DNA of 63,152 bases from a virus: positions 1 to 63,152 of IMG/VR virus record IMGVR_UViG_3300009506_000026; one strand, given 5' to 3'. A model generated the notes under the pieces. That model had not been told where the DNA came from. It worked only from the letters and a program-made list of their open reading frames with translations, and searched no databases. How positions within the stretch are numbered: position 1 is the stretch's first letter; the number at the start of each line of letters is the position of its first letter. Positions 8,918-57,823 of this stretch are shown here, one piece after another. The translations under genes and the position numbers were made by a program.

Positions 8918-8924
8918 GTGCCCC

Positions 8925-9590: not shown

Positions 9591-9593
9591 ACC

Positions 9594-28481: not shown

Positions 28482-28921
28482 TTTCCAATCTCCTTAGATA
28501 AATGTTCAATCGATTTCTTATTGGAATTCATTGTTTCCATTGCTCCCCTCATGAATTCCTCTGTTTTTCCCATATGCCTGTTAATACTTTTGATCAAATC
28601 AAGATATAGACCCTCTGTTTTTTCTTCCCACTTAACCCTCCTTTCCTCGGCTTTGTCCAATTGAATACACAAAGCCGTTATTTTTTTCTCCACGCTACCC
28701 ATACTGTTCGAAAGTGGACAAGTTGCTCGAAATCCCGCACACCTCTCTTCCGAGACAATCTTTTGTGAGGTTAATTTATCCATGTCCTTCTCCAAACCTT
28801 CGATTTTTTCTTTCTGCGCCCCCTTATCTTCATTTATCCTTTTTGAAAATTGGTACCAAGTGAATATCAGACCGCATGCCGTTAAGAAAAATCCGAATAT
28901 TGTTTCCCATCCAAGTGTCAT
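28478..28921 (-). CDS. Membrane-anchored coiled-coil protein, 147 aa
   Basis: Start chosen at 28921, the ATG overlapping the glycosyltransferase stop, preceded by GGAGAAG. One helix (TIFGFFLTACGLIFTWYQF) near the N-terminus followed by a long coiled coil (EKIEGLEKDMDKLTSQK and ITALCIQLDKAEERRVKWEEK) is the topology of an inner-membrane spanin or a small structural anchor. The next gene encodes a lipoprotein. The pair may be an i-spanin/o-spanin-like set; this is inference from topology only. Confidence 0.6.
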   Translation of the reverse strand: MTLGWETIFGFFLTACGLIFTWYQFSKRINEDKGAQKEKIEGLEKDMDKLTSQKIVSEERCAGFRATCPLSNSMGSVEKKITALCIQLDKAEERRVKWEEKTEGLYLDLIKSINRHMGKTEEFMRGAMETMNSNKKSIEHLSKEIGK

Positions 28922-29859
28922 CCATCTTCTCCTTTCCATTTCCTTGCCCACTCTTGAATAGAGATTTTCTGCTGATTGGCGATATGCTTTCTGTGTGGTT
29001 GGCACTTGGCAATGACATCCTGATAGATGTTCTTTAAAGCTTCGGGTTTCCCCTTCATGTTTTCAGAGAACAATCGACATAAATCCTCTCCTCCATAACA
29101 ATATGTTGCAATTAATTTATTCCTTAAATAATCGTCGTACACATAACAATACCCCCTTTTCTCCCCATGATGAAAAAGAGGCTCCGTAGGGAATATCCAT
29201 TTCTTCATTCCCATCACTGCCAATGAAAAATTCAAAAATTGCTCACCCCCAGAATAAATTCCAAGCTCAGGAGGCCATCCCCCCAATTTATTGTAAACCT
29301 CCCTTGACATCATTACTCCACAACAACTCATACAAGGGACCTCATAGGGAGATTCATTCCTCCTGTACCCCGTAAAAGAATAATCTAAATGTCCTTTACT
29401 TAGATTGTTTACCAACTTGTAAATCAATATATGTGATTCTAAGATTTTGTATGTTAAGGGCAAATGAAGGGTACCATTCAGCTCCCTATGATTCTCTTTA
29501 TAAAATTGGAACATATTAAATAGAGAGTCTCGGGAGATAATACAATGGGCATCACAGAACCAAAGAAAATCCCCCGTGGAATGCTTCACTCCTAAATTCT
29601 TTGACTGCCAATGTGACAGCTTCTTTTCATACTTCAAATATTTCAACCAGGGATTGATCCTACCAGAACAGGCATTCACTGCCTCTCCACTTTTGTCATT
29701 TTCATATCCTAACGATTTTACCTGCTCGCAATAATTATCCACTGCAATGACTTCAAAATCAACTCTGCCCCTTAGTTCCTGTGCAATGTTCTGTAGGGTA
29801 AAAAGGACTTGTGGATACTCATTACAAAAAGGAATTATCACGGACAACTTTTCATTCAT
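28918..29859 (-). CDS. Family 2-type glycosyltransferase resembling polypeptide GalNAc-transferase
   Basis: 313 residues. VIIPFCNEYPQVLFTL is the nucleotide-sugar binding start of a GT-A enzyme. The metal-site motif is DAH (103-105, in WFCDAHC), the DxH form used by ppGalNAc-T enzymes rather than the usual DxD. SCCGVMMSREVYNKLGGWP and the later GGE (204-206, in YSGGEQFLNFSLAVMG) correspond to the ppGalNAc-T acceptor-side segment, followed by a histidine pair (230-231). No ricin-like lectin domain is present. A transferase that adds a first sugar to Ser/Thr is suggested; other GT2 roles remain possible. Confidence 0.7.
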   Translation of the reverse strand: MNEKLSVIIPFCNEYPQVLFTLQNIAQELRGRVDFEVIAVDNYCEQVKSLGYENDKSGEAVNACSGRINPWLKYLKYEKKLSHWQSKNLGVKHSTGDFLWFCDAHCIISRDSLFNMFQFYKENHRELNGTLHLPLTYKILESHILIYKLVNNLSKGHLDYSFTGYRRNESPYEVPCMSCCGVMMSREVYNKLGGWPPELGIYSGGEQFLNFSLAVMGMKKWIFPTEPLFHHGEKRGYCYVYDDYLRNKLIATYCYGGEDLCRLFSENMKGKPEALKNIYQDVIAKCQPHRKHIANQQKISIQEWARKWKGEDG

Positions 29860-29862
29860 CCT

Positions 29863-30750
29863 TCACCTCACCAATGATTGCAAATATTTGTCGAAATCCC
29901 TCGCCGACCTCTCTATATTATATCCTATTCTGAATTTATTCCTCCCTGATTTTCTTACTTTATTTAGGATTGTTCCATTCGATAATATCCAATTTAGTTT
30001 ATCAACAAAATCAAATTGAGTGTATCCAATATAATCCTTACCTTCGATTAAATTAGCATAAGGAAAAAGCTTAGTTTCATCTAAACTTTTGTGGGCAAAC
30101 AGAAGGGCTCCCGTTCTTAAAACATCGGTATACATATCGGAACTGGGACCAAATCCAGGACATCCTATAACCACCTTTGTTCTTCTCAATTCTTGTAAAT
30201 ATTGTTCCCTCTGAATCCTCCCATGCACAATCAAATCATTGGTAAAGTTTTTGAATAGTAATTCTTTAACGCTTTCCCGAATATAGTGTGGGTATTTCGG
30301 TTTCGAAAAACTAAAAATGGAACACCGGAAATTGATTACAATCTCCCTATCAAATTCATCCTCATAGATTTCCTCCCCCGAATTGATTGAAACAATAAAG
30401 GCTACAGGGTAATTATTCAGATAAAACTTAGTTGGAGCGCATTTAATTCGTGGAAATAAATTCCCAAATCGTAGGAATCCATTCTGATTCCCATTATCAT
30501 GAGAATCAAGCAATACTTTGGGTCCTTCAAAATCTAAAAACAGCTTGTCGGTCTTTTCAATAACCCACGGCTTGAATTTGTACCCCATAGTCTCATTAGG
30601 AAATGTATTATATACCAACACATCTCCTAAATTTTCTGTGTATTCTGCTAAAGGATTCCATATGATCGTATGCTTATCCTCTAATAAAGACAGCATTTTT
30701 TGGAAGTATTTTTGATTACTGCCCTTAGAAAAACAATATTGAATTTTCAT
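29863..30750 (-). CDS. Glycosyltransferase, GT-B-like, 295 aa
   Basis: Start at 30750 (ATGA overlap with the previous gene; GAGGGAGGA upstream). The second half has VVIGCPGFGPSSDMYTDVLRTG and LFAHKSLDETKLF, the nucleotide-sugar-binding region of a GT-B enzyme, comparable to exostosin/GT1-like phage proteins. The N-terminal half is less conserved. Substrate unknown. Part of the glycan island; ends 4 bases before the ppGalNAc-T-like gene. Confidence 0.65.
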   Translation of the reverse strand: MKIQYCFSKGSNQKYFQKMLSLLEDKHTIIWNPLAEYTENLGDVLVYNTFPNETMGYKFKPWVIEKTDKLFLDFEGPKVLLDSHDNGNQNGFLRFGNLFPRIKCAPTKFYLNNYPVAFIVSINSGEEIYEDEFDREIVINFRCSIFSFSKPKYPHYIRESVKELLFKNFTNDLIVHGRIQREQYLQELRRTKVVIGCPGFGPSSDMYTDVLRTGALLFAHKSLDETKLFPYANLIEGKDYIGYTQFDFVDKLNWILSNGTILNKVRKSGRNKFRIGYNIERSARDFDKYLQSLVR

Positions 30751-31478
30751 TCCTCCCTCTCCCATTCTAAAAAGAAAGCTTTGCTACCTTTCTTCTTGAA
30801 TTTATAATCTGCCATCCATCTCCTCCCTAAATCTTGAATATAATTGGGTGAGTTCGGTTTTCCAAAGACACCGAACTTCCATTTTAATACCTCATCTAGT
30901 AGGGGGGATCCTTTCTCATGAAATTGTTTCTCGGGATTAAAATCTTCTCTAAGATAGGGGAGACAGTTCCTAACAAAATCATGTCTAATTAAGGAGGGAT
31001 GTCCACAAAATCCTACTCCCCCAATCAGCTCCTTCGGACATTCGAAATAATCCCCATTCCAGGGGAAAAACTTATCCCAATTTTTCATTTTATCCTCTGA
31101 GGATTTGAACTGGGGGAGTCGAAGGGAAGCAAGTTCAGGATATTTCTCCATTAAAAATATCATTTTCTTTAAACTCACAAATACTTTTAATTCCCAATCA
31201 TCCTCCAAATGAAAAATAAATTCTGATTCCGTTTGTTCCCATGTCCATTTAAAGGCGGAGGCAAAATTGGGTTTCTCCGCTATTCTATATTTGCCCATGT
31301 GGGGGTAAAACATTTCAACCACATCGATTACTCTTTGTGGATGACTTGTCCCTATAGGATCTACATTTACAATAGGACGAATAGTTGCTTGCCCAAATAA
31401 ATTATTCTCAAAGGAATATAAAGTTCGATACAGAATCTCCGGGCGACAACAAGCCGTTATGGTTACATCGATGATCAT
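30747..31478 (-). CDS. GT-A type glycosyltransferase, 243 aa
   Basis: Start chosen at the ATG at 31478, three bases before the stop of the neighbouring methyltransferase; an in-frame earlier start would read through it. DVTITACCRPEILYRTL opens the GT2-like fold; FIFHLEDDWEL carries the metal-binding EDD. The C-terminal part (GGVGFCGHPSLIRHDF) is the typical acceptor segment. It is close to the sister enzyme at 35328-36059, which has MEDDF at the same place. Donor and acceptor unknown. Confidence 0.75.
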   Translation of the reverse strand: MIIDVTITACCRPEILYRTLYSFENNLFGQATIRPIVNVDPIGTSHPQRVIDVVEMFYPHMGKYRIAEKPNFASAFKWTWEQTESEFIFHLEDDWELKVFVSLKKMIFLMEKYPELASLRLPQFKSSEDKMKNWDKFFPWNGDYFECPKELIGGVGFCGHPSLIRHDFVRNCLPYLREDFNPEKQFHEKGSPLLDEVLKWKFGVFGKPNSPNYIQDLGRRWMADYKFKKKGSKAFFLEWEREE

Positions 31479-31479
31479 T

Positions 31480-32091
31480 TCAGGAGTACCTCCTTTTCTG
31501 AAAATACAATAGATTGTCATAAAAGGCTTTTATGCCTGGTTTTTTCTTCCATGGTTCCCACGCTCTTCGGATTCTATCTACCGGATTGGAATTGAACTCA
31601 TAAGATTTATAATGGAACTTTTCTATCCAATATTCCGCTGGTTGACAATTTACATGGTAATGTCCCCCTTGTCCTGGGGGAGCGGCGGACAAAAGCAATT
31701 TATCGGAAAAGGCGATCAGATTGTCCAATAAGATATCGGAATACTCTTCCTCAATATGCTCCAATACTTCAAAACAAGTGCAAAGATCGAACCTCCCTGG
31801 GAACATATTTTGCACGTCTATGGGGCTTCTTAAATCCATATAAACAATGAATCTGGTCATGGCAAACTGTGAGGCATGTTTCGATCCTTCAAGACCCCAA
31901 GCAACTATCTCCCATTTCTTCCGAAAATGATCCACCAAATCGCCTACCGCACATCCTACATCCATAAGAGTTGTAGGATTAAACTCTTCCATTATTGCAC
32001 GACAGACGTGCTCCGCTCTCCAGGCAAGACGGGTATGAATTTTGAAAAAGTGTGGTTTGTAAATTTCTTCAAGTGGTTTTCTATTCTCCAT
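31480..32091 (-). CDS. SAM-dependent methyltransferase, 203 aa
   Basis: TLMDVGCAVGDLVDHF gives the SAM-binding loop; EVLEHIEEEYSDILLDN is a motif common to the methyltransferases that act on sugars and small molecules; HYHVNCQPAEYWIEKF comes later. Class I fold, 203 residues. Located among glycosyltransferases, so O-methylation of a glycan is the likely job, but the substrate cannot be read from sequence. Confidence 0.75.
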   Translation of the reverse strand: MENRKPLEEIYKPHFFKIHTRLAWRAEHVCRAIMEEFNPTTLMDVGCAVGDLVDHFRKKWEIVAWGLEGSKHASQFAMTRFIVYMDLRSPIDVQNMFPGRFDLCTCFEVLEHIEEEYSDILLDNLIAFSDKLLLSAAPPGQGGHYHVNCQPAEYWIEKFHYKSYEFNSNPVDRIRRAWEPWKKKPGIKAFYDNLLYFQKRRYS

Positions 32092-32355
32092 CTATTGTCT
32101 CCTAAAGATTCTACAAAAAAAGTTCCATACTTTTACAAACCATTTCTCCTCATAGTATTCCACTAAATCAATATACTTCGTTGCTCCACATACTGGACAG
32201 CAAAGACCTATTATTTCATCCTCGCAATCTAATGATGCCATCATAGGCCATAATACAACGTCGATTCTTCCTTCCCTCTCACAATTAACACATATAGGGT
32301 AATACACAAGGTCGTCTTTCCTTGTGAAATCAGGCCGGTATATTTTCGTTGTCAT
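32092..32355 (-). CDS. Small zinc-ribbon protein, 87 aa
   Basis: Start chosen at the ATG at 32355 (GGGTTGGAAC upstream), 25 bases inside the preceding gene. Two CxxC pairs (PICVNCERE and LCCPVCGATK) separated by about 30 residues make a zinc ribbon. The rest is acidic with a hydrophobic/aromatic tail (KVWNFFCRIFRRQ). Function unknown. Confidence 0.55.
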   Translation of the reverse strand: MTTKIYRPDFTRKDDLVYYPICVNCEREGRIDVVLWPMMASLDCEDEIIGLCCPVCGATKYIDLVEYYEEKWFVKVWNFFCRIFRRQ

Positions 32356-32683
32356 GTTCCAACCCTCTTCTCCCCATAAATCGTATCGGCTTTCCCATAG
32401 CTTTGGCAATCGCAATTTCGGTGCAAACCCCCTTAGATTTTCTCCAATCTTTAAAATCTGCTACCCATACCTCATCACACCATTCAATAAATGGTACGTC
32501 TTGAAATAGCCAAAATTCTGTCCCTTCGGGGGGATTCACCATTACACAGGCTATTGGGTGGGTGTGACTAATAGGACTGAAAACCTCATAACCTTGTAGC
32601 ATCAATTCCCCTGCTATTTTATTGGCCATTTCAAAGCTCTCCTGTTCCTGTCCCGTGTAGGGAATTGCTAGGTAAATTTTCAT
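32330..32683 (-). CDS. Nucleoside 2-deoxyribosyltransferase-like protein (DUF1937/DUF4406 type)
   Basis: 117 residues. MKIYLAIPYTG, FEMANKIAGELMLQGYEVFSPISHTHP, and the glutamate segment GVCTEIAIAKAMGKPI match the small DUF1937/DUF4406-type family related to nucleoside deoxyribosyltransferases. These act on N-glycosidic bonds of nucleosides or are signalling-nucleotide hydrolases. It starts within the stop of the metallophosphoesterase gene (4-base overlap). A link to nucleotide precursors or to the modified base is possible but unproven. Confidence 0.65.
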   Translation of the reverse strand: MKIYLAIPYTGQEQESFEMANKIAGELMLQGYEVFSPISHTHPIACVMVNPPEGTEFWLFQDVPFIEWCDEVWVADFKDWRKSKGVCTEIAIAKAMGKPIRFMGRRGLEHDNENIPA

Positions 32684-33867
32684 AATGATCCCGAAAATAG
32701 AGGTTCCTGAATGTCCTCCTCCTCTTTATATGCATGATCATAATTCTTGTAATCATCCTCTATATCTGGGAATATTATAAAGGGCGCCTCAAACCGAAGA
32801 ATATTTCCTTTCTTCAAGGTCGCCTTTATTATGTATCCCCCCACTACAGGGAAATACCCCTTGCGTTTTAGATAATTAGTTCTTCCCTCAAATCCCCCCG
32901 ATTGACAAGCAAATATGGGACCAAATAGAGCCTGCATTTGGATATGTAGATGTCCTGCAAGAAAGAACCTTATCTTTGATTGTTTGCTTGCATACTCATC
33001 CACAGCTTTATAAAGCTCCTGAAAGGCAAGCTGTTCCACTCCTTTCTGTAGACGATAGGAGTAGGCATAGGGGATTCCCCCAGAGGGGTGCCAAAGCTGT
33101 GCCTCGACCTTATCTATTAGAGGAATGTTGGCGACATCTCCCCCCAAATAATGAATATCCTCCCTTCTTTTGCTAATTGCCAAAACGGGATTGTGTCCCG
33201 CCCTTTTAACAAAATCATAATCATGATTGCCTGCAAGCATGTACCAATCGAAACCTGTCGGTAAATTTCTTAGCAGACTTCTTTCCTGTTCCTCCGCACT
33301 ACTAGCATAAATATCATGCTCCTGTCCTTGATACACCTTTATTCCTGCGAATACATCTCCAGGAACAAGGATATGTTTCACCCCCTCCTGTTTAGCCTGC
33401 TTACAAAATTGATTTAACCCAGTGATTTGGCATGCTTTGGAACCAAAATGTAGATCAGATGTTACTCCAAACACAATCTCCTTTGAATCCGAAAGTGGAC
33501 TTTCAATCATTTCTCCGCTCCCTAATGCTTCGGACGAATACACAATCCGATTGTCCTGAATGAACACATCCACACCCCCTACTCGACATTCATCAACGAG
33601 GTTTCTTAGCTCCGTTGGACTACAATCCAAATCAGTCATTACATCCGAACAACTCATTGAGTTCCCATGTCCCTTTAGCATTTCGATTAACAAATTTGCT
33701 CCAATTTTTGCCATAGTTCCTGTATGACCCTCTAATTCGGACATTCCTCTCTCCTCTTTCAAGCGTTCTCGTCTCCGCCTCTCATTGATCCGATGGCGTT
33801 CGAGGCATGATGGACAACGTGTTCTACCCTGTGCCGCCTCCTTTGAGCAATCAATACACCTCATCAT
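32680..33867 (-). CDS. Metallophosphoesterase with N-terminal zinc ribbon, 395 aa
   Basis: MMRCIDCSKEAAQGRTRCPSC opens with a zinc ribbon. A winged-helix-like segment (MSCSDVMTDLDCSPTELRNLVDECR) follows. The second half is a calcineurin-type phosphoesterase: DLHFGS, GDVFAG, GNHDYDF, then GHLHIQ. The enzyme could be a nuclease, a cyclic-nucleotide phosphodiesterase or a phosphatase. It is distinct from the SbcD-like gene at 24839. I chose the ATG pair at 33867/33864. Placement inside the glycan island is unexplained. Confidence 0.78.
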   Translation of the reverse strand: MMRCIDCSKEAAQGRTRCPSCLERHRINERRRRERLKEERGMSELEGHTGTMAKIGANLLIEMLKGHGNSMSCSDVMTDLDCSPTELRNLVDECRVGGVDVFIQDNRIVYSSEALGSGEMIESPLSDSKEIVFGVTSDLHFGSKACQITGLNQFCKQAKQEGVKHILVPGDVFAGIKVYQGQEHDIYASSAEEQERSLLRNLPTGFDWYMLAGNHDYDFVKRAGHNPVLAISKRREDIHYLGGDVANIPLIDKVEAQLWHPSGGIPYAYSYRLQKGVEQLAFQELYKAVDEYASKQSKIRFFLAGHLHIQMQALFGPIFACQSGGFEGRTNYLKRKGYFPVVGGYIIKATLKKGNILRFEAPFIIFPDIEDDYKNYDHAYKEEEDIQEPLFSGSL

Positions 33868-33877
33868 GTCCCCTTTA

Positions 33878-34615
33878 TTATTCAATGTGGTCAACTAGAC
33901 CCCACTCCTTGGCCTTATCAGTACAGAACCAAGTCGTGTGTTTTTCTAGTTCTCCCCATTTGTCCTTGGACAACTTAGAATTTTTTACCAACTTATCAAT
34001 GTAGCGATCACGCAGCAGTTCCATCAACTCATTTTGTGCCCTAATGTCCGAAGCGGATTCCCGTCCTGGCCATTTCCACAAAGCAACCTCGTGAACCATG
34101 AAAATCGTTCCGGGTGCCGCAAAGCGTTTAGAACAAACAGCGAATACAGGAACCGCCGCACTAGCAATGATTCCAGATGCATGTGCCGTGATATGAAATC
34201 CCTTGCGCTTGGCACGTTCGATCTGGTCGGCCAACGCCAGGCCGGAGAATGCATCTCCCCCAGGTGAATTTATGAACAGGTTTACATCTCTTATTTGTGT
34301 ATTGTATTCCAAGAATACAAGATCATTCCAAAGACGGGTGACATCCGCAACCGACAACCCGGAAAAAATCTTGACAAAGGCTTTATCCTTGGCGATGAAA
34401 GACAGTTGAGACAAAGACCCTTCCGGATTGGGAACCTCCATTGATTTATTAATTTGATCCCCTTTATTCACTTCAACGGAAGAGGGACCTTGTGCCCCCA
34501 CTTTGACAAGAATTTCCTGAGGTTTACTTGCAATTTGTGGCATCGAACAACTAAGAAAAAAAATAGCAAAAATTGACAGGATTAAAGCATTGAGGATACT
34601 CGATTTTGTTTTCAT
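33878..34615 (-). CDS. ClpP/SppA-like serine protease lipoprotein, 245 aa
   Basis: A lipoprotein signal (NALILSIFAIFFLSC, lipobox FLSC, Cys23) precedes a ClpP-fold domain: FINSPGGDAFSGLALADQI (SPGGD at 117-121), ASGIIASAAVPVF with the likely catalytic Ser152, and FMVHEVALW with His175. Phage ClpP-like proteins are normally cytoplasmic head-maturation proteases. This one appears anchored to the envelope, away from head genes, and more like SppA or NfeD-type membrane proteases. Its substrate could be a host membrane protein. Good family match, unusual cell location. Confidence 0.75.
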   Translation of the reverse strand: MKTKSSILNALILSIFAIFFLSCSMPQIASKPQEILVKVGAQGPSSVEVNKGDQINKSMEVPNPEGSLSQLSFIAKDKAFVKIFSGLSVADVTRLWNDLVFLEYNTQIRDVNLFINSPGGDAFSGLALADQIERAKRKGFHITAHASGIIASAAVPVFAVCSKRFAAPGTIFMVHEVALWKWPGRESASDIRAQNELMELLRDRYIDKLVKNSKLSKDKWGELEKHTTWFCTDKAKEWGLVDHIE

Positions 34616-34626
34616 CTTCGGTTTCC

Positions 34627-35331
34627 TTAAAAAATTGTTCTTGGATCTTTACCTCGTTCTCTCCAATAGTTAATCCAAATACCCCTTTCTTTCTCTAATA
34701 CAATCTTATATTGCAGCAAGTTGGATACTTGATTGCGCCCTGATTTATGATAGATAAAACAGTCCTTCAATCTAATCCAACTATAATTGCCCGAGGTTCT
34801 CAAATGATAAGAAATCCAATTGTCACCGAAGAATATTCTAAACTTTCTAACAGGAATCGGGGGAATGCGAAAAGCAACTTCCCTTCGCATTAAAATCACC
34901 CCGGCATTTCCCTTCCCTGTTGGTAGTGCCTCCCCAGATAAATCATCCAAAGAAGCACACTTTGGCAATGGTAGTTCCTCTACTACCGTAGCCGTAACAC
35001 ACCCTGTCGTCAATCCCGCATATCTTACCCCTGTGGCCCTTACCGACTTCTCCAAAAGACATTTGCATAATCGCAAATCATCCGCAAGTATCCCTACAAA
35101 GTCGAATCTCATTCCAAGACAGATGTTCCAAACTGCATTGGTACCAATATTACCCTCGTTGGGCTTGTTCACTCGAAATTGAAAATCGTATTTTATGTCC
35201 CTCCCTTCAAATTTCCCCCCATTATCCACCAATAGAACATAATCAGGTTTCATTGTCTGTTTATTCAAATCGCCAAGGACATTTAAAACTTGAGTAGGTC
35301 TCATGCAGGGGATTACAAGTCCTATACTCAT
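34627..35331 (-). CDS. GT2-like glycosyltransferase, 234 aa
   Basis: SIGLVIPCMRPTQVLNVLGDL and VLLVDNGG are the GT-A donor-binding strands; VGILADDLRLC holds the aspartate pair; NAGVILMRREVAFRIPPI and FGDNWISYHL are the acceptor-side segment. Most similar in layout to the family with a MEDDF or HLEDDW motif in this island. Overlaps the next gene upstream (35328) by 4 bases. Substrate unknown. Confidence 0.75.
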   Translation of the reverse strand: MSIGLVIPCMRPTQVLNVLGDLNKQTMKPDYVLLVDNGGKFEGRDIKYDFQFRVNKPNEGNIGTNAVWNICLGMRFDFVGILADDLRLCKCLLEKSVRATGVRYAGLTTGCVTATVVEELPLPKCASLDDLSGEALPTGKGNAGVILMRREVAFRIPPIPVRKFRIFFGDNWISYHLRTSGNYSWIRLKDCFIYHKSGRNQVSNLLQYKIVLEKERGIWINYWRERGKDPRTIF

Positions 35332-40839: not shown

Positions 40840-40857
40840 GGTCTTTCCTTTATTGGG

Positions 40858-40929
40858 CCCCTCCCTACCGACGGTATTGGGTGACTGCCTTTTATTGTTC
40901 CACCTGCTTTCCTATCGTGTAGGGAAGGG
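40858..40929 (-). other. Long-range stem in the intergenic region before the sulfotransferase
   Basis: On the minus strand the 5' part (40929-40919) and the 3' part (40868-40858) pair over 11 bp with only one G-U pair; about 50 bases, including a GGTG/CACC pair, lie inside. The first arm begins just after the stop codon of the GT4 gene. There is no T-run after the stem. It is likely an RNA structural element (processing or translation control). Confidence 0.5.
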
Positions 40930-42195: not shown

Positions 42196-42237
42196 TTTTT
42201 TCTCCTTCATTATGATTGAATTCCTAAGTTTATTTTC

Positions 42238-42266
42238 TTATTAATTGGGCGTTTATGTTTAGTCAA
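42238..42266 (-). promoter_or_regulatory. Sigma70-like promoter for the glycan island (minus strand)
   Basis: On the minus strand TTGACT (42266-42261), a 17-base spacer, and TAATAA (42243-42238). It lies directly after the stop of the tail-tip gene and upstream of the GT4 gene, with a predicted transcript start near 42231. The spacing and both boxes are good. It would let the island be expressed separately from the late structural genes. Confidence 0.55.
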
Positions 42267-42269
42267 GCG

Positions 42270-50400: not shown

Positions 50401-51497
50401 TCTTGAAAACTGCCAGGACCAGTAGTACCAAAAGCTTTTGATAGTACCGCAACTGCTTGGGCTCCTCTAAGTCCAAACAATCTATACGCCTTTGCCATAT
50501 CTACTGTTCCCGCTTCCGATTCCTGCATAACACGACTTAAATTTTCCATTGCTTTTTGATAACCAACAAGTCGTGGATTAATCTCATTCAAATCAATTCC
50601 TAAAGATCGAAATTCCTCCCTCAAATTCCTACTTGGAGACAACAATCGAGATATTACCTGCCGTAACCCTGTACCAATAGTGCTTGCTCTTAGCCCATTA
50701 TTAGCAAGAACCCCCATCGAAGCCGCGGCTTCCTCTATATCAATTCCCGCCTGAGCAGATGCGGCACCCACATAATTAAACGCGGTCCTTAATTTATCAA
50801 TTGTGAGTTTACTTCTATTGACGGCGTTCGCCATCACATCAGAAACTCTTGAGGACTCAACAGTGCTGAGATTCCAAGCTCGAATTGATGTGGTAACCAG
50901 ATCCGCCACATCCGTCATATCTCCTAAAGTGCCTGTAGCCAAATTAGCCACCGCCGACATAGCCTGCATTGACTCAGTGGCGCTGAAACCTGCCTGACCT
51001 AACAAGACCATCCCATCCGCTACCTCAGCAGTTGAAAACTTAGTATCCTTCGCAACCTGTTTAATCGTTTCTCCCATGCCCATTACTTCGGCATCCGTGG
51101 CACGGGTGATGGCTTGCAAATTCTTCAAAGCCTGATCGAAGTCAACGATTTCTTTGGCTCCCGCCGCAAACGCCCTCATCAACCCATATATACCACTTGT
51201 TGCTATGCCGTAGGTTGCAACTGTTTTTAACGCCAAGGACATGCGGTTGACAACACCCGTGACCCTCGTGGCGGCCCTGGCATACTGTCCTAACGCCGTA
51301 TGTCCTCTTTGAATGGCTTGAGTGGCACCCTGTACGTTGCGCCCAGCTTGAGCAAAGGCTTGTGATCCCCTGCCCATCCCCTGCAACTGTTGATTGAAGT
51401 TTAAAACGGCTTGCCGGGCACGTTGGATACCATTAAGGAGAGCAGTAATATCCGCAGTAAAAATTGTCCCGAGATTAAGAGTCCTTCCGTTAGCCAC
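47469..51497 (-). CDS. Tape measure protein, 1342 aa
   Basis: N-terminal 380 residues carry the TP901-type tape measure signature (VDFDQALKNLQAITRATDAEVMG; FSTAEVADGMVLLGQAG; ASMGVLANNGLRASTIG). Residues about 410-520 hold hydrophobic helices. A very long coiled coil follows to about 1200 (KEKELAENNASKLKDIQKDY; LREIRQRDFSDEQKYNDD), then a C-terminal part with GGEEP and MGGLVKSLAP. The length sets the tail length in this family, so the tail should be about 200 nm by the usual 1.5 A per residue rule. Long, non-contractile tail expected as no sheath gene is seen. Confidence 0.9.
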   Translation of the reverse strand: MANGRTLNLGTIFTADITALLNGIQRARQAVLNFNQQLQGMGRGSQAFAQAGRNVQGATQAIQRGHTALGQYARAATRVTGVVNRMSLALKTVATYGIATSGIYGLMRAFAAGAKEIVDFDQALKNLQAITRATDAEVMGMGETIKQVAKDTKFSTAEVADGMVLLGQAGFSATESMQAMSAVANLATGTLGDMTDVADLVTTSIRAWNLSTVESSRVSDVMANAVNRSKLTIDKLRTAFNYVGAASAQAGIDIEEAAASMGVLANNGLRASTIGTGLRQVISRLLSPSRNLREEFRSLGIDLNEINPRLVGYQKAMENLSRVMQESEAGTVDMAKAYRLFGLRGAQAVAVLSKAFGTTGPGSFQDMLNKVYETGSAADMASTQMEGLGVKLKNLADRAKLIAVAFGEAGVTDSLKVLVDVLRSLASVIAQFISSSIGKFLTSITVWVASLTLLGVSFTKLGQLLLKLGPIIVKFANDLKKALIVMNLIQGSSIAMTASVARLVTIMRSAAAKIGLLFAAIGAGIAVFNWFRGSTQRAIDVTIKLDQKMGQTTQTLALYAEKFDKLAEKYKKGENVQRQHESTIKRVEAAYSKLSGQLDLNSEKAEENAQKIREALSVELETKLQNNIKTLELYRKKLEEVAFWQGLLNRVSKGWDALLTILDVKYRNFIDNIGKNAEVLGKAFEIIIPKGMLDILRDDFKLIGEYISEVSEYYKKLGRDTKEYEKTQQEMNDQWVATGTTLYESKLSFEEIRVALIRLGATKDQVELVITALEALKQSSKEIAKNFKENLSDMPEVFRELYDQLSAESQVALIDSLANMDKEIEALKKKAEDYNIEEEKIAKNIMAIRAKTLVDFIEKNEKEKMSLKERADWEIKILDSLAKQVEKTYQERTKGLESVYEKEKELAENNASKLKDIQKDYTGALLRESQARKEELIAIEQAKNDVLEDLARESSRKQAEAWIDLAKDYKTELKSIITESKSKFRELSRDLKKFRKEHSDNLREIRQRDFSDEQKYNDDISRINKLMNEARAKHDYDTYKQAYDLAEGLAREVKDSSGETVRDLRSTSDEAESYMKRIANEIEALYKNQREATKKQAQDAQSDIEKLDRLIDAYGKKIDDVSRKELVLQTEQALQDLDRTYQLVDKFQEKWDQIESKEITLKVKITQEGGVPAIEGGEEPQLGSGEYIRTDEGMAEGGYTLDLIRRLKKKQRQTRKYGSGGSVIGARGIDKIAAWLSHGEYVMRSEAVKKYGTNFMSSINSMTVPVESATKVIKARMGGLVKSLAPRYEMQPEFATPSPINRTYNITVSPQFLTGDRNSMRKLATEVKKAIENVDKGLGKNG

Positions 51498-51792
51498 GTT
51501 TCTTTACTCCTATGCTAAGAACTTGATTGCCTTTATGAAGACCCTTCATTCTCTCCGTCAAGGCTTTTTTCTCCTCGGGACTGTACTTCTCATTGTAATA
51601 TTCCGGAGATTTGAAGGTGAATATGTCAGAGGTTTCCTCTGCTTTTTCATCGTCCTTTACATGAGCACCATGAATCTTAGCCTGAAACTCCATCATCGAC
51701 ATCATTCTTTTCTGATGGTGCTCAAATAAAACGATAATCTGCTTCTTGGTTAATCCCCCTTCTCTATATGACTTTCTAAAACAATCATCCAA
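51490..51792 (-). CDS. Tail assembly chaperone, downstream part (likely made by frameshift)
   Basis: 100 residues from the first ATG, helical and charged (LTKKQIIVLFEHHQKRMMSMM). That ATG has no ribosome binding site, but the frame is open upstream to about 51840, meeting the end of the 51822-52244 gene at a C5 run. It is therefore probably expressed as a -1 frameshift fusion with the upstream chaperone, the classical G/GT arrangement. Directly precedes the tape measure gene (8-base overlap). Confidence 0.65.
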   Translation of the reverse strand: MDDCFRKSYREGGLTKKQIIVLFEHHQKRMMSMMEFQAKIHGAHVKDDEKAEETSDIFTFKSPEYYNEKYSPEEKKALTERMKGLHKGNQVLSIGVKKRG

Positions 51793-51821
51793 TTTGTAAT
51801 TATATACTTCACAAACAGCCG

Positions 51822-52244
51822 TTACGACCTCTCCGAGGGGGATTCCACTATCTGTGGCTCCTTCCCGAAGAGGGCTTCCAACTTTTTTTCGATTTCCTCC
51901 CTTTTAAAGTTCTGTTGGTAAACATGGCCAACTATCTCCAAAGCCTGATAGTTTGTAATGTCCTTCAGAACTTCTACTGTTTCCTCTTCCATTACCATAG
52001 GGATAATTTTCCCTATATTGTCCGATATCGTGTCAATCAAAAATTGAACTAACTCTGGAGTCAAAGCAGTGGAGTTAGGATCCATCTTTCCAAATTCAAC
52101 CAAAATTTTTGATATCATGTCTTTAAGCGTCAATTCATCCGCTAAGGACAAAGGGTAAATCTTAACCTTCCTGAGATTCCGAATGCCTATGGTGACTTCC
52201 GGAATCTCAGGATTGAGTTCTCGTATTTGTTGATTTTCTGGCAT
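51822..52244 (-). CDS. Tail assembly chaperone (upstream part), 140 aa
   Basis: Helical acidic protein (IRNLRKVKIYPLSLADELTLKDMISKIL; VMEEETVEVLKDITNYQ) located between tail tube and tape measure, the invariable place of tail chaperones. Good start behind AAGGAGAAAATAGC. The 0-frame ends shortly after a CCCCC run (51841-51837), from which ribosomes could shift into the downstream frame. Chaperones of this sort bind the tape measure during tail assembly. Confidence 0.75.
   Translation of the reverse strand: MPENQQIRELNPEIPEVTIGIRNLRKVKIYPLSLADELTLKDMISKILVEFGKMDPNSTALTPELVQFLIDTISDNIGKIIPMVMEEETVEVLKDITNYQALEIVGHVYQQNFKREEIEKKLEALFGKEPQIVESPSERS
51837..51841 (-). other. Putative -1 frameshift slippery site (C5 run)
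   Basis: Minus-strand sequence reads GAA TCC CCC TCG in the 0 frame; moving back one base places CCC again in the decoding site, so re-pairing is possible. After slippage the frame runs open into the downstream chaperone gene (LGEVVTAVCEVYNYKLDDCF) and ends at 51490. Confidence 0.5.
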
Positions 52245-52264
52245 TGCTATTTTCTCCTTACTAA

Positions 52265-52906
52265 TTACGCAGTGGTTGTGGTAGTCGTAGTGGTTGTGGT
52301 AGTTGTGAAGGTCGAGCCGTCATTCCAAACAATTTGTCCCAACGGCTTGTCATCCCAACACGCATTTCCACCACTAATTTCCGAATCAGCCCTTTTAGCC
52401 TCAATTCGAATTGCAACCGCAGCAGGTTCCTCAGGAGCAAAGTCCATCTCAATTGAGGCGGAAACCTGTGCCCTGGGGAAGATAATGTTCATGGTATTGG
52501 TACCATCAGGATAAGTATAAATTGCTTCCATCCTGATATACTCCGCGGATGCCAAAGTACCAAGAGCAATTTTCCCTGTGTGTGCTGCGGAATATGCAGC
52601 ATCAGTGGGATCCAAACCACGAGCAAGCGCCATGTTCTTTGGAGTGATTTCTTTGAAAGCACATTCCAAAGCAGCCTGCTCACGAAGTGGGAAAACAGCA
52701 TCTTCCAACATAGGAAAACCTGATTCCAACTTGAAGAACTCCGTATTACCTACAAAACGAGTGTTTGCAAGTGCTCCAATAGAATCTGTGGAGGACAACC
52801 ATGGAGTTTGTTTTGTCAGATACGTGGCAGAAGCTGCCACTCTGACCTGAGCCAAACCCAATGCTACTGTAGTGGTATCTCTTGTTACAGGACCAGTTCT
52901 TGCCAT
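52265..52906 (-). CDS. Major tail tube protein with poly-Thr C-terminus, 213 aa
   Basis: Position (upstream of chaperones and tape measure) and size fit the tube protein; the body is beta-rich (TRFVGNTEFFKLESGFPMLEDAVF; MNIIFPRAQVSASIEMDF). From residue about 200 the chain is twelve threonines then Ala, ending TTTTTA. The threonine codons are ACA, ACT, ACC and ACG in mixed order, so the tail is not a simple trinucleotide expansion. Two other virion proteins end the same way. The tail could extend from the tube surface as a glycosylation site. Confidence 0.75.
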   Translation of the reverse strand: MARTGPVTRDTTTVALGLAQVRVAASATYLTKQTPWLSSTDSIGALANTRFVGNTEFFKLESGFPMLEDAVFPLREQAALECAFKEITPKNMALARGLDPTDAAYSAAHTGKIALGTLASAEYIRMEAIYTYPDGTNTMNIIFPRAQVSASIEMDFAPEEPAAVAIRIEAKRADSEISGGNACWDDKPLGQIVWNDGSTFTTTTTTTTTTTTA

Positions 52907-52908
52907 AC

Positions 52909-53220
52909 TTACTCACCCCCTTTCTTTTCGTTTGTGCCAGAATAATCTTCTTCCTTGGATTGAATTTTAGGTGGTAGATTAACAGGAAAAAAATTGAACG
53001 TATTCCAATGATCAGGATATTCCAATCTACAAGCCCTTCTAAAACATCTCATTTTTATGGAACCATGAACTAACATCTCTACCATAGGAAACTTCTCCGA
53101 AATAGGGACATCCTCATCTCGGTGACTTCTACCAAATACAAACCTCCAAAGTCCCCCTGGCAGTTTTTCAATCAACCTCTTCCCGCACTTCTCACAATGA
53201 AAAAACATTTTTCCGCTCAT
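52909..53220 (-). CDS. Zinc-finger protein, Com-like, 103 aa
   Basis: MFFHCEKCGKRL and a second cysteine pair (RCFRRAC) suggest a zinc finger. The layout (CxxC, about 40 residues, CxxxxC followed by an aromatic tail) recalls phage Mu Com-like proteins, which regulate translation of the mom DNA-modification gene. Here it lies among tail genes, so a structural or regulatory role is undecided. Confidence 0.5.
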   Translation of the reverse strand: MSGKMFFHCEKCGKRLIEKLPGGLWRFVFGRSHRDEDVPISEKFPMVEMLVHGSIKMRCFRRACRLEYPDHWNTFNFFPVNLPPKIQSKEEDYSGTNEKKGGE

Positions 53221-53678
53221 AGCTTCGATGCCGTCCTTAATCTAACTGAAAGAGTTTTGTATTTGGTGCCATCGGGAGCTAGTAGTTGTCCGGATTCCAA
53301 AACCTCTTGTACCAACAATCCCCCTATTGCTACCCATGCCTGATTCAAATAACTTCTATACAATGTAATACTTTTCATCCCATGAGTTGCATTCTCATCC
53401 GATAGATACCCAAGCACTTTATCTTTTAGCTGTGCCAATCTCCACCCCTCATTGTCCTCCCTGGTACAGCAATGGACATACAGAAAGAAGGTTGACATAG
53501 TAGTGAATTCCATAGCACCAAAATTCACTGATACCCATTGTGTGCTACTAGAGTCAGGCTGTGAAATGCCAATATCAAAAACGGTGGTTATCCCCTCTGT
53601 GGTCTTTAAATTGTCCTTAAAATATTTAATAATGCTATCTCGGACATTGGCTTCTCGGGCAGTAGGATCAAGTGCCAT
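53217..53678 (-). CDS. Tail terminator/completion-like protein, 153 aa
   Basis: Overlaps the zinc-finger gene by 4 bases. TAREANVRDSIIKYFKDNL and TTVFDIGISQPDSSSTQWVSVNFG followed by YVHCCTREDNEGWRLAQLKDKVLGYL is the order seen in tail terminator proteins of siphophages (helix, strand, strand, helix). Position before the tail tube supports this. Moderate confidence because the family diverges quickly. Confidence 0.55.
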   Translation of the reverse strand: MALDPTAREANVRDSIIKYFKDNLKTTEGITTVFDIGISQPDSSSTQWVSVNFGAMEFTTMSTFFLYVHCCTREDNEGWRLAQLKDKVLGYLSDENATHGMKSITLYRSYLNQAWVAIGGLLVQEVLESGQLLAPDGTKYKTLSVRLRTASKL

Positions 53679-53679
53679 T

Positions 53680-53886
53680 TTAAAGTTCCTTAGCCTTCCT
53701 TACGTTTTCACAAATTCCATCCAATCCCTTAAAAAAATCCTCTTTGACGTACTCCACAATTTCCTTATCAATCTTACTTTCATCATACTGGCAGTGATCA
53801 AGGAAGTCGAGAATCATTTCGGCTTGCCTCAAGGACAATTCAAGACCAATAAATGTATCTCTATCCTGCACAAAAATTATTTTCAT
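53680..53886 (-). CDS. Hypothetical protein, 68 aa
   Basis: Small acidic helical protein (MKIIFVQDRDTFIGLEL; ILDFLDHCQYDESKIDKEI). Starts within the stop of the upstream gene (ATGA) and ends 1 base before the tail terminator. In other phages similar small genes lie here with unknown function. Confidence 0.5.
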   Translation of the reverse strand: MKIIFVQDRDTFIGLELSLRQAEMILDFLDHCQYDESKIDKEIVEYVKEDFFKGLDGICENVRKAKEL

Positions 53887-54254
53887 TTTGAAAGAACCTC
53901 ATAAAAAGGATTATCTTTGTCCTTTAAATCCCAAGGATCATTATTAAGTTCCTCAAAAACCAATTTCTTAATATCTTGTCGTTCCTTCGTCCATCTTATT
54001 CTTTTTTTTCTACCTATATACTTTTTCCCAGAATGAAACAGCTCCAATAGTTGCGAGGTCAATAACCAATAAACAAATACATATTTGAGGCGTGTACTTT
54101 CGGGGTCCTTGCTGTCAACCCTTATCCTTATTCCCCTATTCATCTCATGCGACCAAACTCCCCACTCAACATCAAAACGGGACATCTTTTTGTCCATTGC
54201 CTCTTTGAACTTCTCGTCAATAAATTCAATGTACTTCTCTGGGGTCATATCCAT
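53883..54254 (-). CDS. Hypothetical neck/tail protein, 123 aa
   Basis: Start chosen at the ATG at 54254 (TTGGAGCAACA upstream) near the stop of 54245-54808. Helical, basic in the middle (KKYIGRKKRIRWTKERQDIKKL). Unknown family; likely a neck component by location. An ATG at 54248 is also possible. Confidence 0.5.
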   Translation of the reverse strand: MDMTPEKYIEFIDEKFKEAMDKKMSRFDVEWGVWSHEMNRGIRIRVDSKDPESTRLKYVFVYWLLTSQLLELFHSGKKYIGRKKRIRWTKERQDIKKLVFEELNNDPWDLKDKDNPFYEVLSK

Positions 54255-54808
54255 TGTTGCTCCAATCGCTTTAAAGCGGCTTCCGCTTGTCTGATCCAAC
54301 CTGTGTCCGAATACTCGATGCCCGTTGGAATAAACAAGGGTCTTGGTTTTGGGTATGTTCCAAAACCTTCCTCCACCAAGAGTGCATACCAAACAATTAA
54401 CTTCTTAGGTCCATAATCCCCAGCACCGAACCATGATTTTCCCCCACTATCTATTGCAGTGGGATCAACTCCCCCTAAATACCCCTTTGGCATTTTGATA
54501 ATCGTAATCGCATTCAATAGGTCCCTTTTCAGCATCCAAAACTTCATAGGAAACCCATGATCTTTCTTCCAAGATTCATACCTCTCATTATACGTAGGGT
54601 AACTAAATTTCCCCGACACCAAATTCTGCCTAACTAAATTCGTATATTCAAAGGCGCATGTATAGGGAAGTCTGTCCTCTAATATCCTTGCCTCATTCTC
54701 CAATTTATGAGTTGCCACTAACCAACGTCGCAACTGTCCTGGATCTAAAAAGGCCCTCAGCATTGATTCCTCACTGTGCCATTCAATACTTTCATACTTG
54801 TTAAACAT
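54245..54808 (-). CDS. HK97-gp10-like neck/minor tail protein, 187 aa
   Basis: Size, place and pattern (PGQLRRWLVATHKLENEARILED; NLVRQNLVSGKFSYPTYNERYESW; LIVWYALLVEEGFGTY) resemble the HK97 gp10/virion-morphogenesis class that joins head to tail. No catalytic motif. The gene overlaps the preceding 127-residue gene by 52 bases. Confidence 0.5.
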   Translation of the reverse strand: MFNKYESIEWHSEESMLRAFLDPGQLRRWLVATHKLENEARILEDRLPYTCAFEYTNLVRQNLVSGKFSYPTYNERYESWKKDHGFPMKFWMLKRDLLNAITIIKMPKGYLGGVDPTAIDSGGKSWFGAGDYGPKKLIVWYALLVEEGFGTYPKPRPLFIPTGIEYSDTGWIRQAEAALKRLEQQWI

Positions 54809-55140
54809 CCCCCAAATTCATTAGGAGAACCGTCCCCATTTAGGGTTACATACGATTTGAAAAAATAGGGCTTAAATTCAATATACTCTTTTTGTTCCTT
54901 AAACAAAACAATTAGATCATGTTCTATCTGTAAAAAGGAAGGGAAAGCTGAGGAAAGCTCCTCAGGTATTTCCTCCGAGCTTTCGAAAACAGCATACCAT
55001 TTAGTTCCAACATTGTGCCAATTCACTTCCTCATATTTTTTAATTCTGATAATCTCCTTCAAAGACACATACTCCGATATCGATTCAATAATTTTGTTCG
55101 AATCCCCTTTTCCATTTTCCACTATAAATAGAGTTATCAT
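54757..55140 (-). CDS. Hypothetical protein, 127 aa
   Basis: Beta-rich in both halves (MITLFIVENGKGD; HNVGTKWYAVFESSEE; KPYFFKSYVTLNGDG). Starts inside the stop of the 58-residue zinc ribbon gene (ATGA). Likely part of the neck. Family not recognised. Confidence 0.5.
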   Translation of the reverse strand: MITLFIVENGKGDSNKIIESISEYVSLKEIIRIKKYEEVNWHNVGTKWYAVFESSEEIPEELSSAFPSFLQIEHDLIVLFKEQKEYIEFKPYFFKSYVTLNGDGSPNEFGGCLTSMKVLNGTVRNQC

Positions 55141-55313
55141 GTTACTGTCCTTGGATCCACAGATGTTGATTCGCCCTTAGGAAGCCCATTCTTTAAAATA
55201 CCACAATAACCACATTTAGGGCAAACGCAAAGGGTTTCTCCACTTGTATTTTTTTGGTCTTCCACCACAAACTCAGTCTGACAAACAGGACAAATAATAA
55301 TTAGTCCATTCAT
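55137..55313 (-). CDS. Small zinc-ribbon protein, 58 aa
   Basis: ATG 55313, stop at 55139-55137. Starts in the stop of the fiber-tail adaptor gene (ATGA) and ends in the start of the next. The product opens MNGLIIICPVC and continues with LCVCPKCGYCG, giving two Cys pairs for one zinc. Unknown function; the start couples it to the upstream structural gene. Confidence 0.6.
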   Translation of the reverse strand: MNGLIIICPVCQTEFVVEDQKNTSGETLCVCPKCGYCGILKNGLPKGESTSVDPRTVT

Positions 55314-55621: not shown

Positions 55622-55633
55622 TGTAATCTCCTT

Positions 55634-57823
55634 TCATGCAACAAATCTATTCCTGGCATTCTCCGCAGTAAAAATTGCCCTCGCATTTTCCCCCACAAAT
55701 TCATTTCTATTAGTTTTTCCTTCAAACTCGGTATGTGGTTCTATCGACCAATCCATAGTAACGGTAGTTGTTGTGGTTGAACTACTGGTCGAAGAGGTCG
55801 AGGAACTCGTTGTTGAAGCTGAGGTGCTTGTGGTAGAGGAAGTTGAAGCAAGCTGTGTTACTGTTGTTGTGGTCGTTGAACTACTTGTGGTTGTCGAGGA
55901 AGTTGTTATGGTACTACTCGTCGTTGTGGACAGAGTTGTTGAGGTCGAACTGGACGACGAGGATGAAGTCGAAGTTGAGGAAGTTGTTGTAGTTAAAGTT
56001 GAACTGGATGACGAGGAAGAACTTGAGGATGAGGTTGTTGTGGTCTCACTGGTACTAGTAGAAGTTGAAACAGTTGAACTCGAGGTCGAGGAACCTGTTG
56101 TCGAAGTCGAAGTTGAGGAAGAAGTGCTTGAAGTAGTGGTTGTTGTAGCCGAACTCGAGGTAGTCGTCTCGGTTGAGGAAGTTGAGGTAGATGAAGTTGT
56201 TGTGGTTTCCGTCGTGGACGTACTCGAGGACGTCGAGGTTGAGGTCGTTGAACTAGTAGAAGAACTGGTAGAAGAACTAGTAGAAGAACTGGATGAGGTC
56301 GAACTAGATGAGGTTGTAGTGCTCTGAGTCGTGGCTCCTGGCTCGGTAGTTGAAGTACTTACGGTGGAACTAGTCGTGGTGCTCTGAGTTGTGGTACTTA
56401 TTGTGGAACTTGTCGAACTCAAAGTTGAGGTTGAAGTCTCAGTAGTCGTGGTGCTTGTAGAAGTAGTGGATGAAGTACTTGAACTAGTGGAGGAAGATGT
56501 TGAGGTAGAGGAAGAACTTGTGGTACTTGAAGATGACGAGGTCGTGGTCTCAGTAGTCGTGGTGCTTGTAGAACTCGAGGTGCTGGACGATGTTGTAGAA
56601 GCCGAACTCGAGGTAGTTGATAAAGTAGAAGAGGTTGTAGTGGTTAAAGTGGTAGTAGTTGCAGAGGAGCTTGTAGTTGTTGTAGAGGAAGAGGAGGTCT
56701 CTCCCGGCTCCGTCGTGCTGGTTGTTGTCTCAGTACTGGTTGTGGTTGACGAAGTTCCCGAAGTGCTTGTGGTCGAAGTATGTGAGGTCGAAGTTGTGGA
56801 ACTCGACGTGGTAGACAAAGTTGAGGATGTGGAGGCTGTGGAGCTTGTGGTTGAAAAAGTTGAAGATGTGGTGCTAGTTAGCGTCGAACTAGATGTGGTT
56901 GTGGAAGAGGAGCTTGTGGTTGAACTAGTCGAACTAAAGGAAGTTGAAGTTGTTGTGGTTGAGGTTGATGTTGTCGTACTGGACGTGGACGACGAAGTAG
57001 AGGAGCTTGTGGTTGAAGTTGTCGTACTGGACGTGGACGATGAAGTAGAGGAACTGGTAGTGGACAGAGTGGAGGACGTGGTCGAAAATGAAGAAGTAGT
57101 TGTTGAGGACTGGGTGGTTGTGGAAACCGTTGAACTTGAAGTCGAAAGAGTGGAACTTGTAGTGGACAAAGTTGAGGTTGTGGTTGAGGTGCCCGAAGTT
57201 GATGTTGTCGTACTGGACGTGGACGATGAAGTAGAGGAGCTTGTGGTTGAAACAGAGGTGCTTGAACTAGAGGATGAACTTGTAGTGGTACTACAAGATG
57301 TTGTGCTATACGTTGAACTGGTAGTTGAAGCTGTGGAACTCGAGGTGCTACAAGATGTTGTGGTTGAGGTGGAGGATGAGGTGGTACTAGACGACGAAGT
57401 AGAGGAACTTGTGGTTACTGTTGTAGTTGTGGTTGTAGTGCTGGAAGAACTTGTTTGTGGAGCAGCAACCGTAACATCTACAGGTGTAGTTGTATACTCC
57501 GTTAAATCATCCTCAATTAATTTTATTCTAACTTGAAACGAACCAGTAGTACCATCATTATAAACAGTTAGCTGTTGTTCATCCGTTGTTTGAAGGCCCG
57601 TTATGGGATTGGTTTCGGAGGAAATATTAAGGGCGCCAGAGGAACCAAGACTTGTCCAAGAACCTACTCCTTGGTCCCACTCAAAATACATATCACCCGA
57701 TTCTGCCCAACCACCACTGCCCGAAGTGGTAATCGCACCCCCCATCAAAAAACTGCCACTGGGTTCCAGTTCCGGATCCACCGTGGGGCGGGGCATTGTT
57801 ACGCCGGTGATATTAGTGGACAC
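55634..57823 (-). CDS. Mucin-like Ser/Thr-rich virion protein, 729 aa (GTG start)
   Basis: Residues about 1-120 form a beta-rich globular domain (SGSFLMGGAITTSGSGGWAE; SFQVRIKLIEDDLTEYTTTP). Residues 124-688 are nearly all Ser and Thr with scattered Glu, Gly, Pro, Leu, Val and His. The last 41 residues carry short repeats (NEFVGENARAIF, TAENARNRFVA). The long tract is too simple to fold and resembles eukaryotic mucins, which are densely O-glycosylated. GTG start follows GAGGTAAGAA. Lies between the connectors and the fiber-tail adaptor, so I expect a neck or head fiber. No enzyme motif is present. Confidence 0.75.
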   Translation of the reverse strand: MSTNITGVTMPRPTVDPELEPSGSFLMGGAITTSGSGGWAESGDMYFEWDQGVGSWTSLGSSGALNISSETNPITGLQTTDEQQLTVYNDGTTGSFQVRIKLIEDDLTEYTTTPVDVTVAAPQTSSSSTTTTTTTVTTSSSTSSSSTTSSSTSTTTSCSTSSSTASTTSSTYSTTSCSTTTSSSSSSSTSVSTTSSSTSSSTSSTTTSTSGTSTTTSTLSTTSSTLSTSSSTVSTTTQSSTTTSSFSTTSSTLSTTSSSTSSSTSSTTTSTTSSSTSSSTSSTTTSTSTTTTSTSFSSTSSTTSSSSTTTSSSTLTSTTSSTFSTTSSTASTSSTLSTTSSSTTSTSHTSTTSTSGTSSTTTSTETTTSTTEPGETSSSSTTTTSSSATTTTLTTTTSSTLSTTSSSASTTSSSTSSSTSTTTTETTTSSSSSTTSSSSTSTSSSTSSSTSSTTSTSTTTTETSTSTLSSTSSTISTTTQSTTTSSTVSTSTTEPGATTQSTTTSSSSTSSSSSTSSSTSSSTSSTTSTSTSSSTSTTETTTTSSTSTSSTETTTSSSATTTTTSSTSSSTSTSTTGSSTSSSTVSTSTSTSETTTTSSSSSSSSSSSTLTTTTSSTSTSSSSSSSTSTTLSTTTSSTITTSSTTTSSSTTTTTVTQLASTSSTTSTSASTTSSSTSSTSSSTTTTTVTMDWSIEPHTEFEGKTNRNEFVGENARAIFTAENARNRFVA
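55760..57454 (-). repeat. Mucin-like Ser/Thr tract, 565 codons
   Basis: A run of degenerate 9- to 24-base repeats encoding Ser/Thr with occasional Glu, Gly, Pro, Leu, Val, Ala, Phe, His and Gln. All Thr and most Ser codons occur, in irregular order. The opposite strand is also open and gives Val/Glu-rich polypeptides; those are shadows of this one. Confidence 0.9.

Follow-up and report, generated by a model that had tools for sequence, protein, structure and literature searches.

The 63,152-base virus record IMGVR_UViG_3300009506_000026 of IMG/VR was analysed over its whole length (the window). Its minus strand carries five virion proteins with serine/threonine (Ser/Thr) tracts and an island of sugar enzymes at 28918-42210, which together form a candidate phage-encoded system for O-glycosylation of the particle. 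Tracts were defined by stretches of 12 residues with at least 11 Ser or Thr. The five structural proteins for which the original prediction had claimed such tracts were all found in place, with tracts of 16 to 567 residues, and none was present among the remaining open reading frames (ORFs) of at least 60 residues in the window. The major capsid protein (59347-60675; Phage_cap_E, PF03864, 1.8e-28; PHROG major head protein) has an 18-residue C-terminal tail (residues 425-442) ending in TSTTTTSSSSTTTTTA, the tail tube protein (52265-52906, role assigned by position) one of 16 residues (198-213) and the connector-position protein (57869-58543) one of 19 residues (206-224), with TTTTTA as the shared end of all three. 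The largest tract belongs to a 729-residue mucin-like protein (55634-57823), where it spans 567 residues (123-689) with 511 Ser/Thr within tracts, Ser/Thr making up 75% of the whole protein. In the tail-tip protein (42270-46736) a tract of about 205 residues (approximately 1126-1330) is followed by a C-terminal F5/8 type C (discoidin) domain (PF00754, 2.4e-8). The label “tail tip”, like the “neck” of the original prediction, comes from gene position only. An origin of the tracts from a DNA microsatellite is excluded, since the long tract of the 729-residue protein freely uses all ten Ser/Thr codons, AGY included (ACT, ACA, ACC, ACG, TCA, TCC, TCT, TCG, AGT and AGC), which points to selection on the amino acids. 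Beyond the tract, the C-terminus of the same protein contains a repeated ENARxxF-type motif, NRNEFVGENARAIFTAENARNRFVA. In the order of transcription, the head part runs from a head protease (61408) through a conserved head-region protein (60693), the capsid and the connector-position protein to the 729-residue protein, followed by the tube, the tape measure (47469), the tail tip and finally the island, from 42210 to 28918.

The first island gene encodes a GT4-type retaining glycosyltransferase (40930-42210; PF00534, 7.2e-7) and the last one a 313-residue glycosyltransferase resembling the catalytic domain only of polypeptide N-acetylgalactosaminyltransferases (ppGalNAc-Ts; 28918-29859; PF00535, 3.2e-13, with profile and fold likeness). 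Between them lie further candidate glycosyltransferases, some of them with orthologues in the islands of relatives (contigs with G numbers): a putative GT-B enzyme (38963-40105, weak profile likeness, kept in G005, G014, G019 and G043), a weakly GT25-like enzyme (35328-36059; PF01755, 3.2e-4 in the own-genome search, below the cut-off), a putative GT2-like enzyme (34627-35331; G005 and G014), a putative GT-A-like enzyme (30747-31520; the tailed phages G005, G014 and G043) and a putative glycosyltransferase (29863-30765; G019). The last three match no family, and PDB profile searches with 30747 and 34627 gave no match; the seven glycosyltransferases originally counted are therefore verified only in part, 28918 (GT2/GT27-like) and 40930 (GT4-like) standing, with 35328 and 38963 weakly alike. 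Possible tailoring enzymes are a PIG-L family deacetylase (37766-38431; PF02585, 6.1e-17), a hexapeptide-repeat acyltransferase (36954-37778; PF00132, 6.5e-8), two S-adenosylmethionine (SAM) methyltransferases (38389-38970; PF13847, 6.7e-5; and 31480-32091; PF13489, 7.8e-8, kept in the G005 and G014 islands) and a radical SAM/SPASM enzyme (36056-36997; PF04055, 6.1e-15; PF13186, 2.8e-8; orthologue in the G005 island), all as first proposed and all with Pfam matches. The sulfotransferase of that proposal (40093-40839) stays putative: it begins with GRTGTRF, which resembles the loop binding 3′-phosphoadenosine 5′-phosphosulfate, and itself matches no Pfam family, but the islands of relatives include Sulfotransfer_2 genes. 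The set of tailoring genes changes from one of these islands to the next and draws on methyltransferases and Pfam sulfotransferases as well as a GT17 enzyme and another radical SAM enzyme; such a constant core with varying end-group enzymes would be the pattern of a surface glycan under diversifying selection. A bacillithiol-like synthesis by BshA/BshB1-like GT4 and PIG-L enzymes was considered and dropped, the scores being far under the curated cut-offs and a PIG-L orthologue being absent among the relatives compared. The island also contains non-sugar genes, namely a DUF1937 gene (32330), a metallophosphoesterase (32680) and, adjoining the latter, a Clp/S14-type protease with a lipoprotein-like N-terminus (33878-34615).

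A scan with the capsid found 43 viral loci, and whole contigs were then fetched for comparison. Some of the relatives' capsids end in a Ser/Thr tail and others stop at the equivalent of residue 418-420. A tailed capsid is accompanied by a tailed tube and a tailed connector in 13/13 contigs besides the window, a set with near-copies (G002/G019, G005/G007 and G001/window), so that independent phages are fewer. In eight contigs with a tailless homologous capsid, the tube and the connector are also without tails (0/3), and tracts were found in 0/21 tailless capsid relatives. The tails are an all-or-none trait over three unrelated genes, those of the capsid, the tube and the connector. In a capsid tree computed with the tails removed, a single branch (support 100/99) separates the tailed capsids from the others. 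Orthologues of 28918, 30747, 34627, 38963 and 40930 occur only in tailed relatives (G002/G019, G005 and G014), and G043 shows the same core, with the GT4 enzyme first and the ppGalNAc-T-like enzyme last. Tailless relatives of up to 92 kb carry other GT2 genes and none of the core island orthologues. Two tailed contigs, G013 and G016, show no glycosyltransferase, both ending near or before the expected island. The original prediction had suggested, as a check, that related phages be searched for joint retention of tracts and island, and the outcome is strongly in favour. As a separate observation, the tailless G017 (L081-L084) has a different sugar-enzyme set between its head and tail genes (46877-55229), composed of a GT2 enzyme and hexapeptide transferase-like, radical SAM-like and methyltransferase-like proteins.

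The same association is also found outside this capsid lineage. Scans with family alignments yielded 21 loci for 28918 and 80 loci for 40930, and 80 viral loci drawn by a meaningless 15-base pattern served as a random control. Tract ORFs are present in 61/80 loci of the 40930 family and in 0/80 random loci (Fisher 2e-27, a value that ignores kinship and the shorter length of the random loci, 698 kb versus 1.3 Mb), and in 35/45 clusters when the 40930 proteins are grouped at 70% identity. The tract ORF and the GT4 gene share their strand in 113/114 cases, at a median distance of 834 bases and mostly within less than 2 kb. From 189 tract ORFs, 54 core groups were obtained. Loci of the 28918 family have tracts in 17/21 cases and the GT4 enzyme in 19/21, and a 28918-like gene is found in just 10/50 loci of the divergent group. 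Thirty-two GT4 loci contain a Mu-gpT-type capsid (PF10124), which has no meaningful match to that of the window, and all 32 have tract proteins. In the loci of this lineage read in detail these proteins are small and consist of a head (about 50 residues) to which a long (ST)n tail is attached. Their genes lie immediately between those for the capsid and the GT4 enzyme, and GT2 genes come next; small Ser/Thr-tailed carriers are seen at L189:8580-9586, L156:7979-8392 and L160:8241-9164. One gpT-lineage locus also has sugar-nucleotide genes (UDP-sugar dehydrogenase, DegT aminotransferase and epimerase). Six phages, cultured or assembled, have related gpT-type capsids; the stretches read of them contain no GT4-family member, and five of the six have no tract ORF. 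The GT4 or the 28918 family occurs in another 28 contigs, several of them of 140-277 kb, and only two of the 28 have a capsid related to that of the window. The pairing of tracts and island recurs in many unrelated uncultured phages. The GT4 gene was also found in four contigs of bacterial genomes, labelled as Deltaproteobacteria, Desulfobacteraceae, Proteobacteria and Anaerolineales metagenome-assembled genomes, with tails in two; the labels hint at hosts, the binning of viral contigs being unreliable.

Several observations weigh against O-glycosylation of the tails by the island enzymes. The single branch on the capsid tree means a single event, so the correlation is non-independent inside that lineage. 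Tailless relatives carry other glycosyltransferases, and such an enzyme alone is therefore no predictor of tails; the broader idea that any phage glycosyltransferase goes with tails was rejected on account of these relatives and of another phage glycosyltransferase family, with tracts at 0/6 loci. No tract lies within reach at 19/80 GT4-family loci, some of which are cut off and one of which (L135) is G014, whose tails sit further off. Sugar-nucleotide genes were not found in the island of the window. Finally, a DNA pattern of eight Thr codons, an Ala codon and a stop retrieved 39 stretches, where nine contigs longer than 25 kb have a poly-Thr tail and lack the GT4 enzyme, several of them with one tailed protein, and where G054 (76 kb; L321-L322) and G080 (31 kb; L333) have several tract ORFs and no PF00535/PF00534 match. 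In G054 and G080 other enzymes possibly act, or the tails exist unmodified. The isolated poly-Thr tails mean that a lone tail proves nothing, and the rule that any poly-Thr tail implies a glycosyltransferase island is contradicted by the tailed contigs in which no such enzyme was found. They also speak for a reading in which the tails stay unmodified and are maintained for a use of their own, as flexible linkers or sticky fibres, the island being a common passenger. We consider this very unlikely, as shared capsid and connector tails accompany the GT4 enzyme in 4/4 contigs longer than 25 kb found by the DNA pattern (G043, G056, G062 and G079), and none of the 80 random loci has tails or GT4.

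Regarding the enzymes, the likeness of 28918 to ppGalNAc-Ts, expected from the start, was borne out by profile searches and by a high-confidence predicted fold. Human ppGalNAc-T10 is the top PDB chain in a plain sequence search, and the seven top matches of a 16-row family profile against the PDB are all ppGalNAc-Ts (best 6.1e-10), with TarP and other GT2 enzymes ranking below them. An AlphaFold2 model built from the 16-row alignment reached a mean predicted local distance difference test score (pLDDT) of 93.7 and a predicted TM-score (pTM) of 0.92, and all 50 PDB matches listed by Foldseek for it are ppGalNAc-Ts, with TM-scores to the query of 0.61-0.75, including T1, T2, T4, T7, T10, T12, Toxoplasma T3 and fly PGANT9. 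It supersedes an early model from three rows (pLDDT 60), a weak one in which GtrB and ppGalNAc-T matches were mixed. Residues D103/H105 (DxH, the predicted metal motif), G204-G205-E206, H230, R235 and Y237 are invariant over the 16 rows. No ricin-type lectin domain is present in the 313 residues, the matches stopping within the catalytic domain. The protein is predicted to be a GT-A catalytic domain of the ppGalNAc-T type. As a single sequence it gave no match in the viral scan and, against 50,697 phage records, a sole weak one in Tunturi_4 (25% identity), where there are no Ser/Thr tails. The fold also bears on the possibility that the island makes or alters a host surface polysaccharide, in serotype conversion or exclusion, with the tails unrelated. 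Phage glycosyltransferase clusters frequently act on cell surfaces, and one weak GtrB-like PHROG match was obtained, no search aimed at membrane proteins having been made. Yet the well-modelled 28918 resembles peptide transferases and not GtrB, and the island is tightly paired with tract-bearing structural genes, on the same strand and mostly within 2 kb in unrelated phages, which makes this possibility very improbable.

The 40930 enzyme has E325-x7-E333, R229 and K233, the GT4 retaining catalytic residues, invariant in a family of 49 rows, and its profile finds BshA-type and other GT4 enzymes as the nearest in the PDB. Searches of cultured phage records with 40930 and one divergent relative gave no homologue. 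It is the best sequence marker of the Ser/Thr-tail trait and, as the widest partner of the tracts, may be the primer. The GT4 enzyme would then prime Ser/Thr as GtfA/GtfB do for serine-rich repeat adhesins, and 28918 would add later or elsewhere. This fits the 61/80 tracted loci and their short distances, the place of 40930 directly after tract-bearing structural genes in both lineages, the scarcity of 28918-like genes in the divergent group and the invariant E-x7-E and Arg/Lys residues. On the other side, it is 28918 whose predicted fold belongs to a family with peptide acceptors, and GtfA is not among the PDB matches of the 40930 profile, which are BshA-like and other GT4 enzymes only. We give priming by the GT4 enzyme a little under an even chance, noting that it is a form of the preferred explanation and that the two estimates overlap. 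Since it is 40930, and not 28918, that accompanies the tracts most consistently, the first sugar could come from 28918, from 40930 or from both.

Some viruses encode glycosyltransferases for the hypermodification of DNA (Pyle et al. 2024, cited in PMC12619734), and the island enzymes could accordingly be imagined to put sugars on phage DNA bases. The island, however, lies on the strand of the late structural genes and follows the occurrence of protein tails, and a likelier DNA modifier is found in the other arm, on the plus strand (6240-12177), where 7-deazaguanine genes probably form a DNA modification system; we regard sugars on bases as most improbable. The set comprises QueD/PTPS (6240), a QueE-like radical SAM enzyme (6629), GTP cyclohydrolase I (8348), a glutamine-amidotransferase-QueC fusion (9594) and a second QueC-like gene (11467). 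Also on the plus strand, one ORF (15045-17648) encodes a family A DNA polymerase with an N-terminal uracil-DNA-glycosylase domain.

The explanation that we consider highly probable, from the sequences and their distribution, is phage-encoded O-glycosylation of the virion tails. The original proposal that the island builds and tailors O-glycans on virion tracts is supported by the joint occurrence in related and unrelated phages and by the predicted fold of 28918; we infer the tails as acceptors, the order of the steps, the sugars and the benefit. Late in infection, the soluble island enzymes would draw on host nucleotide sugars, and 28918, 40930 or both would place the first sugar on Ser/Thr in the disordered tails that the capsid, tube, connector-position, 729-residue and tail-tip proteins carry. 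Further glycosyltransferases would lengthen the chain, and its end groups would be varied by the sulfotransferase, methyltransferase, acyltransferase, deacetylase and radical SAM enzymes. The outcome would be a dense mucin-like coat on the virion, which might provide shielding, adhesion, protease resistance or hydration. We also lean slightly towards a wider view, in which a mobile mucin-type module has passed between unrelated uncultured tailed phages, the 140-277 kb contigs included. Its parts would be Ser/Thr tails, the GT4 enzyme, in many cases an enzyme of ppGalNAc-T fold, and a changing set of tailoring enzymes with sulfotransferases among them; it would give the particles a sulfated or methylated mucin-like coat, and the ppGalNAc-T catalytic fold would then also act on viral proteins inside the bacterial cytoplasm. 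If so, many environmental phages would have sugar-coated particles, with a bearing on phage adhesion, concealment and persistence and on the origin of ppGalNAc-T-type enzymes, and the module might yield soluble enzymes with which Ser/Thr tails could be glycosylated in bacteria. Such phages could be found by a simple sequence marker, the GT4 gene.

With the eukaryotic ppGalNAc-transferases (CAZy GT27), which start mucin O-glycosylation in animals, whose fold is known chiefly from that pathway and whose substrates are Ser/Thr clusters, 28918 shares the predicted catalytic fold, DxH, the conserved GGE and the H..R.Y region; it differs from them in its identity of about 15%, in having no ricin-type lectin domain and in being phage-encoded. 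In bacteria, GtfA/GtfB prime the Ser/Thr-rich tracts of serine-rich repeat adhesins, and the number of tailoring glycosyltransferases varies per cluster (PMC6291802). In the system described here no GtfB partner or DUF1975 domain was identified, and the carriers are virion proteins instead of secreted adhesins. For phages, Freeman et al. 2023 is reportedly the primary study of mycobacteriophage virion glycosylation. According to three accounts, virions of the mycobacteriophages Che8, Corndog and Myrna are glycosylated at the C-termini of capsid and tail tube (PMC12619734, PMC12363180, PMC11600133), with phage-encoded glycosyltransferases and an O-methyltransferase. The capsid and tube C-termini of the window and of its tailed relatives bear Ser/Thr tails, the presumed acceptors; the capsid and tube of Che8 end in FNKTGS and QYSDGS, without such tails. 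Che8 has three glycosyltransferases, gp108-110, of which gp110 is GT25-like and gp108 has a methyltransferase domain, and neither blastp nor profile searches of gp108-gp110 against the island enzymes and their profiles gave a significant match. No report on mucin-like phage proteins or sulfotransferase-bearing virion glycosylation was found in the literature covered, mainly open-access papers. The arrangement, thought at the outset to be undescribed, is thus precedented in its idea, and its enzymes are not those of Che8. With different protein ends, unrelated glycosyltransferases, tracts of up to 567 residues, at least five tract proteins and more tailoring enzymes, the system of the window appears to follow the same idea as mycobacteriophage virion glycosylation in a different and larger build. 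Virion glycosylation has so far been documented in only a few mycobacteriophages with other enzymes, and the candidate system described here would be widespread, non-homologous and directed at long mucin-like acceptors.

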